Shown: in pieces, positions 29,589 to 35,599 of the stretch
Layout: the number at the start of each line of letters is the position of its first letter
Numbering within the stretch: the stretch's first letter is position 1
Assembly: GCF_002155965.1 (NCBI RefSeq)
Contig: NZ_MUMH01000036.1
Span: 1-46,627 of the forward strand
DNA length: 46,627 bases
Source of the DNA: Allokutzneria sp. NRRL B-24872
GTDB taxonomy: Bacteria; Actinomycetota; Actinomycetes; Mycobacteriales; Pseudonocardiaceae
Reading direction: 5' to 3'
Program-made: the position numbers and the translations under genes
Notes under the pieces: model-generated
The model's database searches: none
Seen by the model: the letters and a program-made list of their open reading frames with translations, nothing else
What the model was told of the DNA's origin: nothing

Positions 29589-30281
29589 TTATCGGGCAAG
29601 CCTTTCCTCGTCACTCCGACGTGGGCAGCTGCGGCACTCGTCCTCCACCGGGATGGTCCACCACAGGCAGCACTTCGACCTCAGGAAGACCAGCTTGTCC
29701 CCCGCCGTCGATTCGACCAGGCGCCCGGTGTGAGCGAGCCAGGGCACTTGTGCGACGAGCGCCCTGTGCGCTTCGAGCAACTTCTCCTTCGGGGCACGGG
29801 CACGAGCCATCGCGGTGCCGAGCCCGAAGCCGATCTGCCCCGCTACCGGACTCCACGCGCACCCCGGCTCGACGGACAGCGCCTCCGCAAGCGCTCGCAT
29901 GTGCCCTTCCAGCACCAAGTCGGCCACGTCCGCCAGGCCGCTCGCCGAATCGGCAACGGGCTGAATCGCCTTCGGTTCAACGTAGACAACGCCGAACCCG
30001 TGCCCGTCTCCTCGGATCGAAACACCATCCGGATGCACGAGCACATCTCCGATGACCGTGGGCATGACCGTCACCTGGCACACGCGAATCGCATAGCAAG
30101 AAAGAAAAGTACGCGCCGCCGACGCGCGGAGGGTGTGCCCGCTCGATGTTTCCTCGATGTCGACGAGCGACCTCAGCACATCAGGCTCGTAGATCAAGTC
30201 TGCGCATCTGATCGCATCAGCGGGAGGCGTGCCGACGACGACCTCCGCCTCCGGGCAGCACGCCGCGAACAGCTCCTTCAC
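29589..30281 (-). CDS. FhuF-like 2Fe-2S protein in the B12 uptake operon
   Basis: A 230-residue protein whose C-terminus carries C204-C205-x10-C216-x2-C219, the unusual cluster motif of the siderophore reductase FhuF. The rest (residues 1-200) is compatible with a short FhuF-type fold. FhuF relatives reduce ferric siderophores in the cytosol. Here the gene overlaps btuD by GTGA in an operon led by a cobalamin riboswitch, so reduction of an imported corrinoid (Co(III) to Co(II)) is a reasonable alternative; this is inference. Four further Cys lie near the N-terminus (two in AACCP). Confidence 0.85.
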
Positions 30282-31036
30282 ACCGGCCCCTGAATGTCCA
30301 AAGTGGACCCGATCAGCCGCCCGCGAACGCCGAAGACGTCAGCGAGCAACCGCTCGTCCAACACCTCGGACGGAGTCCCGGACCCGACCAGACTCCCGTT
30401 GTCCAGCACAGCGATCCGGTCGCAGTAGGACACGGCGAGTCGCAGGTCGTGCAACGTCAGGAGAACTGCCAGCCCTTCGTCAGCCAGCTCGCGCAACAGG
30501 CCGAGCACGCCGAGCTGGTGCCGCAGGTCGAGGTGGTTCGTCGGCTCGTCCAGCACCAGGACTTCGGGCCGCACAGCCAGCGCACGAGCGATCGAGACGC
30601 GCTGCCGTTCTCCACCGGAAAGCGTGCGGACATCCCGATCGCGCAGGTCGACGAGCCCAGCAGCCCGGATCGCCGACTCCACCGCTTCGCCGTCCTCGGC
30701 GCGCATCGCCTCCAGCCAACCGCGATGGCACACACGCCCCTGCTCGACGACCTCGGTCACCGTCAGCGAGGCCGCGTGCTCCGGCTCCTGCGTGCTCGCC
30801 GCCAACCTCCGAGCGAGTTCCCTGCGCGGCAGTTCGTCTACAAAGGACTGTCCTATGTAGACCTTTCCGGCCGCTGGGGCGACCGCGCGGTACAGGGATC
30901 GCAGCAACGTCGTCTTGCCGCTGCCGTTCGGGCCGACGAGCCCGAGCACTTCGCCCGGGGTGACCGCGAGGTCAACGCCGTCGACCACGAACCGCCCGCC
31001 CAAGCGCACCCTGAGGCCGTCAGCGCGAAGGCTCAT
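30278..31036 (-). CDS. btuD: Cobalamin ABC transporter ATPase
   Basis: FecE/BtuD-type ATPase of 252 residues that powers the importer. Walker A GPNGSGKTT (about 36-44), signature LSGGERQRVSIARAL, Walker [17 protein letters not shown] and switch His in LTLHDLRLA are intact. The sequence family also serves siderophores and haem; the B12 assignment rests on the riboswitch at the head of the operon. ATG 31036 overlaps the permease stop (ATGA), and its own stop overlaps the FhuF-like start (GTGA). The reading frame upstream of 31036 is only a shadow of the permease. Confidence 0.88.
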   Translation of the reverse strand: MSLRADGLRVRLGGRFVVDGVDLAVTPGEVLGLVGPNGSGKTTLLRSLYRAVAPAAGKVYIGQSFVDELPRRELARRLAASTQEPEHAASLTVTEVVEQGRVCHRGWLEAMRAEDGEAVESAIRAAGLVDLRDRDVRTLSGGERQRVSIARALAVRPEVLVLDEPTNHLDLRHQLGVLGLLRELADEGLAVLLTLHDLRLAVSYCDRIAVLDNGSLVGSGTPSEVLDERLLADVFGVRGRLIGSTLDIQGPV

Positions 31037-32082
31037 CCCATCCTCCGTCGGTTCCGCAGCAACATCAGGATGAACAGCGGGCCGCCGACGGCAGAGGTGA
31101 TCACTCCGACCGGCAACTCCGACGGCGAGGCCAGCAACCGGCCGAGCAGGTCCGCTGCGACCAGAAAACCCGCGCCCAGCAAGGCCGAGACTGGAAGCAA
31201 GCGCCGCGCGTCGGAGCCGACGAGGAACGTCGCGACGTGCGGCACGATCAGCCCCACGAAGCCGATCCCGCCCGCGACCGCGACCGAGGTGCCCGCCAGC
31301 AGTGAGACGCCGATCAGCATCACCAGCCGGAAGCGGCGGGGGTTCACCCCGAGCGCGGTCGCGGCGTCGTCCTCCGCGTGCAGGAGATTGATCCGCCGAC
31401 CTGCCACGATGCCGCCCAGCACAGCCAGGACGAGCACCACCGCGGGTACCGCCAGCGCGTCCCACCTGGCGTCTCCGAGTCCGCCCGCGAGCCAGAACAG
31501 CACCTGCTTGGCCTGATCTCCCTTGGCATGCAAGAAGATCACGAGAGACAGGCCCGCACTGCACACCTGGCCCACCGCGAGCCCGGCGAGCACCAGCACG
31601 CTGACCGAGCCCGAGCGACCCGAGATCGCGAGCACCGCCAGCAGCACCCCGAGTGCTCCGACAAAGGCCACTGGCGGCAGCGCGACCATGCCTAGAACCT
31701 CTACCCCAAGCACCATCACCAGTGATGCCGTGAGACCGGCACCCTGTGAGACACCGAGGAGGTAGGGGTCGGCGAGGGGGTTGCGCGTGACGATCTGCGC
31801 GATGGCTCCCGCAATGGCGAGCGCCGCGCCGACCACCACGGCCATCGCGACCCTGGGCAGGCGGGAGTCCCACACGATCGACGCGCGCACCGGGCTCCAC
31901 GTCACGTCCACCAGCCAGGGCGCGAACGGCTCCGCGAGGATGCCCCACACGTGACTGAGGGGTAGCCACACGGAGCCGAACGACACTGCCAGCACACACA
32001 CGACCACCACGGCAGCCGTGAGTGCGAGAACCGTGAACAGCAGAGGTGGCCGCTTTCGAGCCACCCCAACGAGAACCGTCAC
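31033..32082 (-). CDS. btuC: Cobalamin ABC transporter permease (FecCD family)
   Basis: Ten-helix membrane subunit of a BtuCD-type importer, 349 residues. Landmarks are SRLPRVAMAVVVGAALAIAG near residue 75, TRNPLADPYLLGVSQGAGL near 100, the ATPase-coupling loop GVNPRRFRL and the C-terminal GFVGLIVPHVATFLVG. GTG 32082 overlaps the btuF stop (GTGA). As with btuD, the family does not distinguish B12 from iron chelates, but the upstream riboswitch does. Confidence 0.88.
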   Translation of the reverse strand: MTVLVGVARKRPPLLFTVLALTAAVVVVCVLAVSFGSVWLPLSHVWGILAEPFAPWLVDVTWSPVRASIVWDSRLPRVAMAVVVGAALAIAGAIAQIVTRNPLADPYLLGVSQGAGLTASLVMVLGVEVLGMVALPPVAFVGALGVLLAVLAISGRSGSVSVLVLAGLAVGQVCSAGLSLVIFLHAKGDQAKQVLFWLAGGLGDARWDALAVPAVVLVLAVLGGIVAGRRINLLHAEDDAATALGVNPRRFRLVMLIGVSLLAGTSVAVAGGIGFVGLIVPHVATFLVGSDARRLLPVSALLGAGFLVAADLLGRLLASPSELPVGVITSAVGGPLFILMLLRNRRRMG

Positions 32083-33044
32083 CAGGCCACACCGGGATGC
32101 AGGCCGCGCGCCAGCTTCTCCACCGCGTCAGCCAGGCGGATGCCCTCGATGAGGTCCGGCAGGGTCAGCGTGACGTACTTGCCCTGCGCCACGCCCGGGG
32201 TCTTGGCGACGAGCGGATGTCCTTGCAGGAAGGCACGTTTGCCGTCCAAGCCGCCCGCACCGAGGTAGTCCACCAGCACCACGGCCTTCGGCGCGCGCTC
32301 GGCGACCTGCTCCCAGCTCGCGTCACCGAAGATCTTCGGCAGGTCAGCGAAGATGTTGCGGCCCCCGGCTCGCTTGGCGATGTCGTTGCCCAGGCCGTGA
32401 CCCCCCACGGTGAACGCGGCCTTCTCCCCGCTGTCGTAGAAGAACACCGGCACCGGCTCGACCCCCTGGACCTTCGCCGACACCGCGTCGATGCGCCGCG
32501 TCGTCTCCTCCGCCAAGCTCTTCGCGCGCTCGGCCACCCCGAACGCCTTGCCGAACAACACCAGGTCCTCGGTGTAGGTGGTGATCCCGATCGGCCCCGT
32601 CGAGCACGACTCCGCCAGCAGCAGAGTCCGAATTCCCTTGCGCTCCAAGGCTTCTCGTCCGCGTCCGTCCTTCTCCGCGAACGCGCTCGCGTAGCCGCCG
32701 ACCACCACGTCCGGCTCCGCCGCGAGCACCTGCTCCATCGACGGGTACTTCTCCGCGATCAGCTTGATCTTCTTGTAGTCCGCCTCGATCGACGCGGGCA
32801 CGTCCGGGGTGTCGGGGTAGGCGGTCCCCACGATGCGGTCGGTCAGGCCAAGCGCGACCAGGATCTCCGTCGCGTGCTGGTTGAGGCTGACGATCCGTTG
32901 CGGCGGTGTCGGGAACGACTGCGCCCTGCCGCAGCTCGTCACGCTGGTGGCCGACGACGCGGGAGCGGGCGCCGGGGTCGCACACGCGGCCAGCGCGACG
33001 GTGAGCGCGGCAGCGCTGAGCGCACGCCGAAAAGACCTGGTCAT
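32079..33044 (-). CDS. btuF: Cobalamin-binding lipoprotein of the ABC importer
   Basis: Periplasmic-binding-protein-fold receptor, 321 residues. The signal peptide ends in VALAAC, with lipidated Cys21. The mature part starts with the short two-lobe PBP2 type (FecB/BtuF): QRIVSLNQHATEILVALGL, a PSMEQVLAAEPDVVVGG hinge region, and a C-terminal LPDLIEGIRLADAVEKLA helix. ATG 33044 has GGAAGG upstream and stands about 40 nt below the riboswitch. It is the first gene of the operon btuF-btuC-btuD-fhuF-like. Confidence 0.88.
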   Translation of the reverse strand: MTRSFRRALSAAALTVALAACATPAPAPASSATSVTSCGRAQSFPTPPQRIVSLNQHATEILVALGLTDRIVGTAYPDTPDVPASIEADYKKIKLIAEKYPSMEQVLAAEPDVVVGGYASAFAEKDGRGREALERKGIRTLLLAESCSTGPIGITTYTEDLVLFGKAFGVAERAKSLAEETTRRIDAVSAKVQGVEPVPVFFYDSGEKAAFTVGGHGLGNDIAKRAGGRNIFADLPKIFGDASWEQVAERAPKAVVLVDYLGAGGLDGKRAFLQGHPLVAKTPGVAQGKYVTLTLPDLIEGIRLADAVEKLARGLHPGVAW

Positions 33045-33069
33045 TGGCACCTTCCGTAGACCTCGACGG

Positions 33070-33235
33070 AGTTCGAGCCGAACGTGCTCGGGCAGGTGTT
33101 CGGGCTCGCCACCGCGCGTGCGGAGGCCCACCGTTGCGGGTCAGCGCCGGACTTCGACCGGTCTTCCCCTGCCTGAGACGTGTATTCGGTTGTCGCCCCG
33201 GATGCTCCCCGAGCTGCGGCGGGCCGGTCAAACCC
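33070..33235 (-). promoter_or_regulatory. Cobalamin (AdoCbl) riboswitch
   Basis: Read on the minus strand, the leader has GGCAGGGGAAGACCGGTCGA, then the B12-box core GCGCTGACCCGCAACGGTG (33129-33147), then GGCGAGCCCGAACACCTGCC (33091-33110). These match the conserved GGGAA...GGTCGAA-TCCGGCGCTG-CCCGCAAC-GTG and GAGCCCGAACACCTGCC parts of actinobacterial cobalamin riboswitches. A hairpin around GAGCACGTTCGGCTC lies just below, before the btuF ribosome-binding site, and may be the expression platform. The outer ends are approximate. Confidence 0.9.
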
Positions 33236-33361: not shown

Positions 33362-33988
33362 GTGGCGCAGTACGTCTTGCCGGAACTGGATTACGACTAC
33401 TCGGCTCTGGAGCCGGCGATCATCGGCGAGATCAACGAGCTGCACCACTCCAAGCACCACCAGGCCTACGTCACCGGCGCCAACCAGACACTGGAGAAGA
33501 TCGACGAAGCCCGGGACAAGGAAGACTTCGGCTCCATCGTCGGCCTGGAAACCACCCTCGCCTTCCACCTCGCCGGACACGCCCTGCACCAGGTCTGGTG
33601 GAAAAACCTCTCCCCCAACGGCGGCGACAAGCCCACCGGCGAGCTCGCCGCGGCAGTCGATGAATTCTTCGGCTCCTTCGACGGCCTGCGCGCCCAGCTC
33701 AACGCCGCCGCCTCCACCATCCAAGGCTCCGGATGGGGCATCCTCGCCTGGGAGCCGGTCGGTCAGCGCCTGGTCACCCAGCAGCTCAAGGACCACCACT
33801 CCAACCTCTCCATCGCCACCACCCCACTGCTGGCCTTCGACGCCTGGGAGCACGCCTACTACCTCCAGTACCGCAACGTGAAGGCCGAATACTTCAACGC
33901 GCTCTGGAACGTCATCAACTGGAACGACGTCAACGAGCGCTTCGTCTCGGCTCGCGCGGGACAGAACGGCTTGCTGCTCCAGCCCTGA
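33362..33988 (+). CDS. sodA: Superoxide dismutase, Fe/Mn type (SodF-like)
   Basis: Converts superoxide to peroxide and oxygen. The 208-residue protein has the four metal ligands at the same positions as M. tuberculosis SodA: His28 (ELHHSKHH), His76 (HLAGHALH), Asp160 and His164 (DAWEH). His145, typical of the mycobacterial iron enzyme, is also present. No signal peptide. GTG 33362 has GGAGG 6 nt upstream. With the Nur-type box in its promoter, it is likely the iron enzyme that is switched off when nickel supports a Ni-SOD elsewhere in the genome. Confidence 0.95.
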   Translation: MAQYVLPELDYDYSALEPAIIGEINELHHSKHHQAYVTGANQTLEKIDEARDKEDFGSIVGLETTLAFHLAGHALHQVWWKNLSPNGGDKPTGELAAAVDEFFGSFDGLRAQLNAAASTIQGSGWGILAWEPVGQRLVTQQLKDHHSNLSIATTPLLAFDAWEHAYYLQYRNVKAEYFNALWNVINWNDVNERFVSARAGQNGLLLQP

Positions 33989-34028
33989 GACCTGGCAGTG
34001 GATGCTCCGACAAGCGAAGCTGCTCAGG

Positions 34029-34065
34029 AAGGACCCCGGCCATCCTTGGTGGCCGGGGTCCTTTT
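34029..34065 (+). terminator. Strong intrinsic terminator of sodA
   Basis: AAGGACCCCGGCCA (34029-34042) pairs with its complement at 34050-34063 around a 7-nt loop, and a T-run accompanies the 3' end. The roughly 75-nt 3' UTR ending here resembles the position of the s-SodF small RNA in Streptomyces. Confidence 0.85.
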
Positions 34066-34097
34066 GCGTTCAGCCGCAACCAACACCCTGACAAACG

Positions 34098-34177
34098 AAA
34101 AGCCCCTGACTCCCGGTCGGAAGTCAGGGACTCTTCATGTTCCCGAACTGACTGCCGCTCCCACCACGAAGCGGACA
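34098..34177 (-). ncRNA. Candidate iron-repressed small RNA
   Basis: From a predicted start near 34177 the minus strand gives about 80 nt. It contains a small stem CCGCT/AGCGG, a second small stem GTTC/GAAC, and then a 14-bp stem (arms at 34101-34114 and 34119-34132, loop GACC) followed by TTTCG: an intrinsic terminator. The promoter carries an iron box (34182-34200). No ORF longer than four codons is present. The terminator may also serve the MFS gene upstream on this strand. Confidence 0.55.
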
Positions 34178-34181
34178 GGAA

Positions 34182-34200
34182 TTAGGTTAGCCTAACTTCA
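34182..34200. promoter_or_regulatory. IdeR/DmdR iron box
   Basis: On the minus strand TGAAGTTAGGCTAACCTAA matches the iron-box consensus TTAGGTTAGGCTAACCTAA at 17 of 19 positions. It lies 3' of both flanking genes (sodA and the MFS gene converge here), so neither is its obvious target. Confidence 0.8.
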
Positions 34201-34212
34201 CCGGGGTGGCAA
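34184..34212 (-). promoter_or_regulatory. Sigma70-like promoter overlapping the iron box
   Basis: On the minus strand TTGCCA (34207-34212) and TAACCT (34184-34189) are separated by exactly 17 nt. The iron box covers the spacer and -10, the position expected for repression by Fe-IdeR. Transcription would start near 34177. Confidence 0.5.
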
Positions 34213-34219
34213 GCCCCAG

Positions 34220-35599
34220 TCACTTCCGGGTGAGCACCCGGAGCCGGACCAGCCGGCGGACCGGCAGTCTGATCCCGCCGCGGCGCATCAGCACGACCCC
34301 GCAGACCAGCGCGAACAGCAGCGAGATGGCTCCGCCGAGGAACACCGGCGAGCGCGGTCCCCAGTGCTCGGCGACCCATCCCATCAGGGGACTGCCGAGC
34401 GGGTTCCCGCCCAGGAACACCAGCATGTAGAGGCCCATCACCCGGCCGCGCATCTCCGGGGCGACCGAGAGCTGCACGATCGCGTTGGAGACCGTGGTGA
34501 AGGTCAGCGCGGCGGCTCCGGTGAGCACCAGCAGCGCGCCCATGGTCCACGGGTCGGGCATGAAGCCGGTGATGATCTCCAGCGCGCCGAAGGCCGCGGC
34601 GCCGCCGATGAGCAGTCGCTGGCGGGGCTGTCCCCTGCTGCTGCGCCGCGCGGCCATGATCGCGCCGGAGAGCGTGCCGACGGCGATCGCGGTGGACAGC
34701 GCGCCGTAGAGGGAGGCGTCGCCGTGGAACTCGTTGCGCGAGATGACGGCCAAGGTGGAGTGGAAGTTCAGCCCGAAGGTGCTCACCCCGAACGCCAGCA
34801 CCATGATCACGACCAGGTCGGCGCGCCCGCGCACGTAGCGCAGGCCCTCGCGGAGCTGGCCGCGCCCGCGCGGGACCGGCTTGGAGCGGAACAGCTCGGC
34901 CGGGTTCATCAGCACCAGGCCGGTGATCACCCCGGCGAAGCTGGCCCCGTTGACGACGAACACCCAGCCGGTGCCCACCCAGTTGATCATCAGGCCGGCG
35001 AGGGCCGGGCCGAGGATGCGGGCGATGTTGAAGGTCATCGAGTTCAGCGCCACCGCGTTGGTGACCTGCGCCTTGCCGACCATCTCCACCGAGAAGGACT
35101 GCCGCACAGGTGTCTCCACGGCGGTGAACACGCCCAGCACCAGGCAGAGCAGGTACACGTGCCACAGCTGCACCACACCGGTCACGTCCAGCGCGCCGAG
35201 GGTCAGCCCGCACAGGCCGATCGCCGCCTGGAGCACGATGAGGAACTTCCGCTTGTCCAGCCGGTCGGCGAGCACGCCCGCCCAGAGCGACAGCGCGAGC
35301 GTCGGGGCGAACTGGATCGCGACGGCGATGCCGAGGGCGACCGGGCTGCCGTCGGAGAGCTGGAGCACCAGCCAGTCCTGGGCGACGCGCTGCATCCACA
35401 CGCCGATGAGGGAGATGACCTGCCCGGAGGCGTAGAGGCGGTAGTTGCGGGTTCGCAGCGAGGAGAACATGCCGCTACGAGGCTTCTCGTTCTCCTGGGG
35501 CGCCTCTATATCCACAATGGACGGAGGGGGTGTGCCTGGCGGGGAGTGGTTGTCGTCGAGCGGACGCTGACTCCTGGTGTTCCCCGCGTGAATCGGCAC
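34220..35599 (-). CDS. MFS exporter (EntS/MFS_3 type)
   Basis: A 459-residue, 12-segment transporter. After a hydrophilic N-terminus of about 43 residues comes FSSLRTRNYRLYASGQVISL, the usual start of this family, then the A-like motif LWAGVLADRLDKRKFLIV. Twelve segments follow, with the RRSSRGQPRQRLL loop in the middle. The GTG start is 4 nt past the marR stop, but AAGGA almost touches it; a GTG near 35518 or the ATG of MFSSL are alternatives. Repression by the MarR protein and export of a drug-like compound are likely. Confidence 0.88.
   Translation of the reverse strand: MPIHAGNTRSQRPLDDNHSPPGTPPPSIVDIEAPQENEKPRSGMFSSLRTRNYRLYASGQVISLIGVWMQRVAQDWLVLQLSDGSPVALGIAVAIQFAPTLALSLWAGVLADRLDKRKFLIVLQAAIGLCGLTLGALDVTGVVQLWHVYLLCLVLGVFTAVETPVRQSFSVEMVGKAQVTNAVALNSMTFNIARILGPALAGLMINWVGTGWVFVVNGASFAGVITGLVLMNPAELFRSKPVPRGRGQLREGLRYVRGRADLVVIMVLAFGVSTFGLNFHSTLAVISRNEFHGDASLYGALSTAIAVGTLSGAIMAARRSSRGQPRQRLLIGGAAAFGALEIITGFMPDPWTMGALLVLTGAAALTFTTVSNAIVQLSVAPEMRGRVMGLYMLVFLGGNPLGSPLMGWVAEHWGPRSPVFLGGAISLLFALVCGVVLMRRGGIRLPVRRLVRLRVLTRK

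Follow-up and report, generated by a model that had tools for sequence, protein, structure and literature searches.

The window, by which we mean the whole 46,627-nt stretch of DNA that was analyzed, contains two genes that converge on a short intergenic region, namely, a superoxide dismutase gene (sodA) on the plus strand and a gene encoding an MFS_3 transporter on the minus strand. An iron box, the elements of a minus-strand promoter, and a predicted small RNA (sRNA) lie between them. The features are as follows.

33362..33988, plus strand: Fe/Mn superoxide dismutase gene (sodA; Pfam PF02777/PF00081), converging on the sRNA
34220..35599, minus strand: MFS_3 transporter gene (Pfam PF05977), directly upstream of the sRNA promoter
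34207..34212, minus strand: -35 element TTGCCA, with a 17-nt spacer to the -10 element
34184..34189, minus strand: -10 element TAACCT, within the iron box
34182..34200, strand not assigned: DtxR/IdeR-type iron box, 17 of 19 positions matching TTAGGTTAGSCTAACCTAA, overlapping the -10 element
34092..34176, minus strand: predicted small RNA gene of ~85 nt with approximate, predicted ends (covariance-model match at 34085-34177 with 87.5 bits, the model having been built with the window sequence included)
34155..34174, minus strand: predicted 5' hairpin of 7 bp with the G-rich loop GUGGUG, based on fold and conservation, nearly invariant
34139..34154, minus strand: 16-nt linker CAGUCAGUUCGGGAAC, predicted to be single stranded, nearly invariant, and by complementarity the proposed seed for acnA mRNA
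34095..34138, minus strand: predicted intrinsic terminator hairpin with a T-rich tail, variable in sequence but with conserved pairing

Iron box, promoter, and predicted fold

The sequence-only reading of this region had placed a 17-of-19 iron box at a point where two genes converge and had recognized a minus-strand TTGCCA-N17-TAACCT promoter overlapping it. These observations were borne out. The box, TTAGGTTAGCCTAACTTCA, at 34182-34200 is of the DtxR/IdeR type and is the only site in the 46.6-kb window with three or fewer mismatches to the consensus; no such site was found in 100 shuffles. TTGCCA runs from 34212 to 34207 and TAACCT from 34189 to 34184, and the region is flanked by sodA (plus strand) and the MFS gene (minus strand). 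A generic consensus scanner applied to the locus reported neither the sRNA promoter nor the sRNA terminator, and its sole terminator-like match was the sodA-side hairpin at 34044-34058 on the plus strand.

Transcription of the sRNA is predicted to start at about 34176 and to end in the T-rich stretch. The segment 34091-34175 has a folding energy of -45.2 kcal/mol (z = -5.0), and the terminator stem is predicted to comprise 20 bp closed by a 4-nt loop. The terminator and T-rich tail proposed earlier are thus retained, while the stem length is not, as the 14 bp given for it form the inner part of the longer predicted stem. An Rfam search of 33900-34400 returned matches overlapping the RNA that scored far under the gathering scores, and no family was assigned.

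The dismutase had also been called an iron enzyme, a specification that is not supported. The Pfam assignment is Fe/Mn, no metal-specific NCBIfam model reached its cutoff, and the top (subcutoff) score came from a Mn model. Genes for a FecCD-type permease, a periplasmic binding protein, and, as judged by eye, an apparent ABC ATPase adjoin sodA at 30278-33131. The FecCD and binding-protein genes are without an iron box, and the model nearest to the binding protein, that of a putative F420-0 transporter, scored below its cutoff.

Conservation of the box-linked RNA in Pseudonocardiaceae

A DNA search with 34020-34240 gave matches in 35 of 60 genomes. These included 34 of the 36 Pseudonocardiaceae genomes, counting the window's own (G004 and G019 were without a match), and a single genome among the 24 from other families, in which the match was short (E = 9e-4) and lay away from the box. 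Most matches took in the box together with the beginning of the RNA. The 30 loci extracted share the box and, apart from minor differences, the core GTCCGCTTCGTGGTGGGAGCGGCAGTCAGTTCGGGAAC; a terminator is also present, but its sequence varies. A covariance model (R1), which does not demand the exact core, was run over 298 genomes of the order and matched 53 of the 54 listed Pseudonocardiaceae genomes at E < 2e-10, the exception being G288. Closer searches of G288, G004, and G019 yielded no credible copy of the RNA; assembly gaps are possible for the latter two. When one genome per named species was searched with the exact core pattern, at least 118 stretches matched. The genera among the matches listed (80 names) include Saccharopolyspora, Amycolatopsis, Lentzea, Actinokineospora, Prauserella, Saccharothrix, Kibdelosporangium, Kutzneria, Umezawaea, and Actinophytocola, as well as Actinopolyspora and others. 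NCBI taxonomy places Lentzea inside and Actinopolyspora outside the Pseudonocardiaceae, and the other genera we take to be members of the family. As loci collected by an exact pattern inflate invariance, the core seems more invariant than it really is.

Beyond the Pseudonocardiaceae, R1 matched 78 of 244 genomes at E ≤ 0.01 (best, 4e-5). From these 78 genomes, 22 hits in 19 genomes were examined and rejected as homologues, as all 22 were without a box (best, 11 of 19 positions) and appeared by eye to be terminator-like hairpins; the other 11 of the 33 rows inspected were paralogues or further hits within the Pseudonocardiaceae. One of the 22, in a sister-family genome (L180; G273:C27:192081-192188), carries the linker-like ACAGTCGGTTCGGGAACA, but its best box reaches only 10 of 19. 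A locus in a record named Nocardia sp. NRRL S-836 (L059) has the RNA, and its neighboring genes belong to the same clusters as those at the Lentzea loci L047 and L102; the strain is probably misnamed.

The linkage of box and core was scored at 179 places, some organisms being represented twice, 4 of which lay too near an end to be scorable. Upstream of 174 of the 175 scorable copies there is a box matching the consensus at 16 or more positions (16 to 18 of 19), located at -25 to -27 from the core start in 172 copies and at -22 in 2. The copies collapse to 145 distinct 150-nt sequences, and in 138 of these a -35 element (TTG or TTC) precedes the -10 element at a spacing of 17 or 18 nt. The boxless exception (L197; 10 of 19) is a second RNA copy in G136 that has degenerated, possibly a decaying paralogue. 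Joint conservation of box, RNA, and terminator in relatives had been put forward as a check on the initial reading, and they are indeed kept together in nearly all of the family genomes examined. Two genomes of one genus (G006 and G270) have three RNA copies each, with boxes of 14 to 16 of 19 and a one-base insertion ahead of the linker, and fall outside the core criterion used for box linkage. Two of the three copies (L198 and L201 in G006; L199 and L200 in G270) are ~300 bp or 1 kb apart, a close spacing that recalls the tandem arrangement of the PrrF pair.

Substitutions within the family follow the predicted structure. Across the 30 extracted loci, 92.6% of the structure cells are paired, compared to 42 to 55% when the partners are slid, and changes on both sides were found in 17 of 25 pairs. 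Sixteen of these 17 are in the terminator, where 16 of 18 pairs changed on both sides. In the 5' hairpin, 100% of the cells are paired, with one compensatory change from G-C to A-U and seven changes from C-G to U-G. The RNA is assigned to the minus strand because of the order in which box, promoter, and terminator occur and because an invariant U-G pair in the stem would be A-C on the opposite strand. Overall, we are highly confident that this is a real small RNA gene, driven from an iron box and present nearly family-wide.

Neighboring genes, as counted from simple open reading frame picks and single-linkage clusters, bear on whether the gene is autonomous. Upstream, at 76 of 144 distinct loci, lies a gene of the MFS cluster that runs in the same direction and mostly ends 6 to 160 bases ahead of the core, and the segment might accordingly be read as this gene's 3' untranslated region with its terminator, the box acting elsewhere. 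The nearly constant distance from box to RNA start, the presence of a -35 element of its own, and the retention of box and RNA at loci with different or opposite upstream genes make this very improbable. The downstream gene belongs to the superoxide dismutase cluster at 58 of the 144 loci, to an N-acetyltransferase cluster at 39 (Pfam PF00797 for one member), and elsewhere at the remaining loci. Its orientation is convergent to the RNA at 116 loci and the same at 20, and was not called at 8. As the downstream genes vary and 116 of 144 point toward the RNA, the RNA fits poorly as the leader of one gene. That the conserved core instead encodes a short iron-regulated protein is suggested by a GTG-GTG start followed by a 10-codon frame in the window, and the near-exactness of the core limits how firmly such a peptide can be dismissed. 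However, the open frame across the core ranges from 10 to hundreds of codons, with neither stop, length, nor reading frame conserved, and the 5' stem shows a compensatory change. The varying frame length, together with the one-base insertion in the G006 and G270 copies, argues that the core is noncoding, and we regard a protein product as extremely improbable.

Complementarity to acnA and other candidate targets

The 80 nt upstream of the acnA start codon were compared with the core in 18 RNA-bearing Pseudonocardiaceae genomes representing 17 genera. The leaders contain stretches complementary to the linker, for example TCCCGAACTGAC, CCGAACTGACT, or GTTCCCGAACT, and in 10 of the 18 the longest contiguous Watson-Crick run to the core comprises at least 9 bases. 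For nine of these 10 runs, the starting position is in the range from -50 to -23, a short distance ahead of the GGAG ribosome site, and for the tenth (G011) it is -73. No such run occurred in 17 acnA leaders from 19 genomes of other families (G042 and G055 were dropped because the start could not be reliably placed), a difference for which Fisher's test gives a P value of 0.0002 that is optimistic because the genomes are related. Among leaders of genes near the RNA loci, 7 of 651 (~1%) have a run of this length, 3 of 654 having been left out because they contain the antisense of the RNA itself, and 2.3% of shuffled acnA leaders (16 of the 18 were shuffled) reach it. Matches are therefore ~50-fold enriched in acnA leaders over other leaders. 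Furthermore, although the leader is variable over much of its length, the site is found in either of two registers that overlap, CCGAACTGAC and GTTCCCGAACT. In the window's own genome, the acnA leader GTTCCCGGACTCACCGCC offers an 11-bp run with one G-U pair from -34 to -24, and the predicted duplex (-20.3 kcal/mol) extends to -21.

The acnA leaders of the other 8 of the 18 RNA-bearing genomes are without a 9-nt Watson-Crick run. With G-U pairs allowed, the longest run is 11 in G000, G002, and G012 and 10 in G018, while pairing is weak in G005, G015, G016, and G023; G-U-allowed runs are, however, frequent by chance, as 9% of shuffled leaders contain one of at least 11. In G288, where no RNA was found, 12 nt of the acnA leader (L386) match the hairpin-loop segment (GCTCCCACCACG). 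None of the eight copies of this 12-nt word in that genome has a box, and chance or another cause can therefore also yield long matches. The acnA leader of G019 (L347), another genome in which no RNA was found, keeps a site resembling the linker complement, and an assembly gap may account for the missing RNA. Many acnA leaders (e.g., L246, L249, and L295) also share another element ahead of the linker complement, with the sequence GTGCGC(A/G)AGACTCG or a close variant. It follows a CAGGACAAGCGTACTGTT stretch and precedes the ribosome site, in a region reminiscent of AcnR operators.

Runs of at least 9 nt were likewise seen in 3 of 15 sdhC leaders (G003, G014, and G027) and in 5 of 17 sdhA start regions (G009, G011, G018, G021, and G029), using windows of 90 and 75 nt for the sdh genes, some of the sdhC starts being uncertain. 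The sites are in eight different genomes, and the RNA segments involved differ between genera. The bacterioferritin (bfr) model matched in only 2 of the 18 genomes, too few for a target test, and exact complements of the linker occur 8 to 68 times per genome, too many to name targets. We rejected sodA as a target, as only 3 of 77 distinct sodA leaders (3.9%, compared to a background of ~1.1%) have a run of at least 9 nt. This agrees with the initial expectation that targets would be found elsewhere.

The best explanation of these observations, in which we place good confidence, is a stand-alone iron-repressed sRNA that would spare iron by way of acnA. An iron-sparing function like that of RyhB had been suggested from the outset and gains support from the complementarity in acnA leaders, which makes acnA the probable chief target of such an RNA. 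From the sequence features described, we infer transcription, repression by iron, and repression of acnA and, less surely, repression of sdh. When iron is plentiful, an iron-loaded regulator of the DtxR/IdeR family bound to the box would cover the -10 element and block transcription. As iron falls, the ~85-nt RNA would be made, ending at its own terminator. Its exposed linker CAGUCAGUUCGGGAAC, perhaps aided by the G-rich hairpin loop, would then pair with mRNAs of dispensable iron enzymes, mainly that of acnA at ~20 to 50 nt upstream of the start codon, and this pairing would hinder ribosome loading and thereby spare iron. A near-invariant RNA of this kind, present almost throughout the family, would account for a decrease of iron enzymes under iron scarcity even where these have no repressor site themselves. 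The family includes important producers of antibiotics, among them Amycolatopsis and Saccharopolyspora.

It is also conceivable, though rather unlikely, that the iron-repressed sRNA is real and has some other main task, such as protein binding or another regulon, with the acnA matches being secondary or due to chance. Loop and linker are both nearly invariant, which is more than a single target would seem to demand; the leaders properly examined are those of acnA, sdh, and sodA; and the G288 match occurs without the RNA. Nevertheless, the enrichment of acnA matches, their absence from the 17 leaders of other families, and the persistence of the site in either register within an otherwise variable leader favor iron sparing through acnA.

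Comparison with known iron-responsive sRNAs

To our knowledge, few sRNAs controlled by DtxR/IdeR have been described. A search of the open-access literature found no description of the present RNA. An sRNA prediction for Saccharopolyspora erythraea names the iron-related sernc293 (PMC3827479), which we rejected as the present RNA since it belongs to a different kind of locus, overlapping the start of an iron transporter gene. The accessible part of a reannotation paper on the same species makes no mention of iron (PMC4008361). A screen for IdeR sites in S. erythraea kept only intergenic sites with an annotated start codon no more than 500 bp away (PMC8464063). A filter of this type would drop the window's box, as the nearest start codon is ~820 bp away.

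Another actinobacterial sRNA, s-SodF of Streptomyces coelicolor, arises by processing from the 3' end of sodF under nickel control (PMC3919588). The two RNAs are alike in size (~90 nt), in a strong stem and few U residues, in lying beside a superoxide dismutase gene, and in acting, predictedly so for the present RNA, at an mRNA leader. In contrast, the present RNA lies on the opposite strand and is served by an iron-box promoter of its own, and it neighbors a superoxide dismutase gene at only 58 of 144 loci.

Among the closest known parallels is the iron-responsive MrsI (ncRv11846) of mycobacteria, which two reviews describe as an RNA of ~100 nt that is located between blaI and Rv1847, has an IdeR site, uses a short apical-loop seed, and targets bfrA, fprA, and hypF (PMC8628891, PMC11188477). 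As in MrsI, an IdeR/DtxR box overlaps the promoter of an intergenic small RNA, and the two also share a structured fold, a predicted intrinsic terminator, a short seed, and the repression of iron proteins, which for the present RNA is a prediction. However, the predicted seed here is the linker and not an apical loop, the predicted chief target is acnA, and the neighbors are MFS and superoxide dismutase genes, N-acetyltransferase genes, and others, in place of blaI and Rv1847.

Box-linked RNAs near BlaI genes, with a core resembling CUGAGGGCUGCAG, were found in a sister family (f8) that is apparently the Mycobacteriaceae. Judging by synteny, they are presumably MrsI. Such RNAs (L219, L220, L224, L234, L238, L239, L240, and others) occur in several genera of f8 with a well-conserved core similar to CTGAGGGCTGCAG, and their alignment (A2) provides a ready basis for an MrsI family model. 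A covariance model (R2) of 13 of these BlaI-linked RNAs recovered each of the 7 f8 genomes on which it was run, including 5 that had supplied model sequences. In 22 Pseudonocardiaceae genomes it found nothing credible, with one weak hit (E = 0.003), and its best E value on the 30 core loci plus the window was 0.036. Conversely, R1 matched only terminator stretches, and these in 2 of 14 MrsI-like loci. As each model ignores the other family, the present RNA does not qualify as a member of the MrsI family. An MrsI relative diverged past recognition would share the common layout of iron box, 5' hairpin, linker, and terminator within ~85 to 105 nt, and the sister family does have an MrsI-like RNA. 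Given the lack of cross-detection and the different neighbors, with BlaI confined in this comparison to the MrsI-like loci, we consider such common descent quite unlikely. The best reading would be an RNA that works like MrsI or RyhB and is not an MrsI homologue by either model or synteny. We see about an even chance for a broader proposal, in which sister families use mutually exclusive, nonhomologous DtxR/IdeR-repressed sRNAs (MrsI and the present RNA) for one job, through independent invention or replacement at the family level, with the acnA site shifting register while the RNA stays fixed and with two seeds, the G-rich loop and the linker, serving a wider regulon.

We know of no chaperone for the present RNA. 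Several features place it beside the established iron-sparing sRNAs. Like RyhB/PrrF, FsrA of Bacillus, and IsrR of Staphylococcus, which are iron-repressed and trans-acting and target aconitase, it appears to be transcribed from a promoter under an iron repressor, as indicated by the box at nearly fixed spacing, and it would pair with iron-enzyme mRNAs near the ribosome site, as judged by complementarity. Some species have duplicate copies of those sRNAs, as G006 and G270 do here. In contrast to those RNAs, which are under Fur control, its box is of the DtxR/IdeR type, its exposed loop is G rich and not C rich, and its predicted pairing with acnA lies upstream of the ribosome site. RyhB, PrrF, FsrA, IsrR, and MrsI are reported to be unrelated and yet all to target aconitase mRNA (PMC9410917). 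With its predicted acnA site, the present RNA fits this pattern and would add a further case of one regulatory solution having been invented repeatedly and independently.
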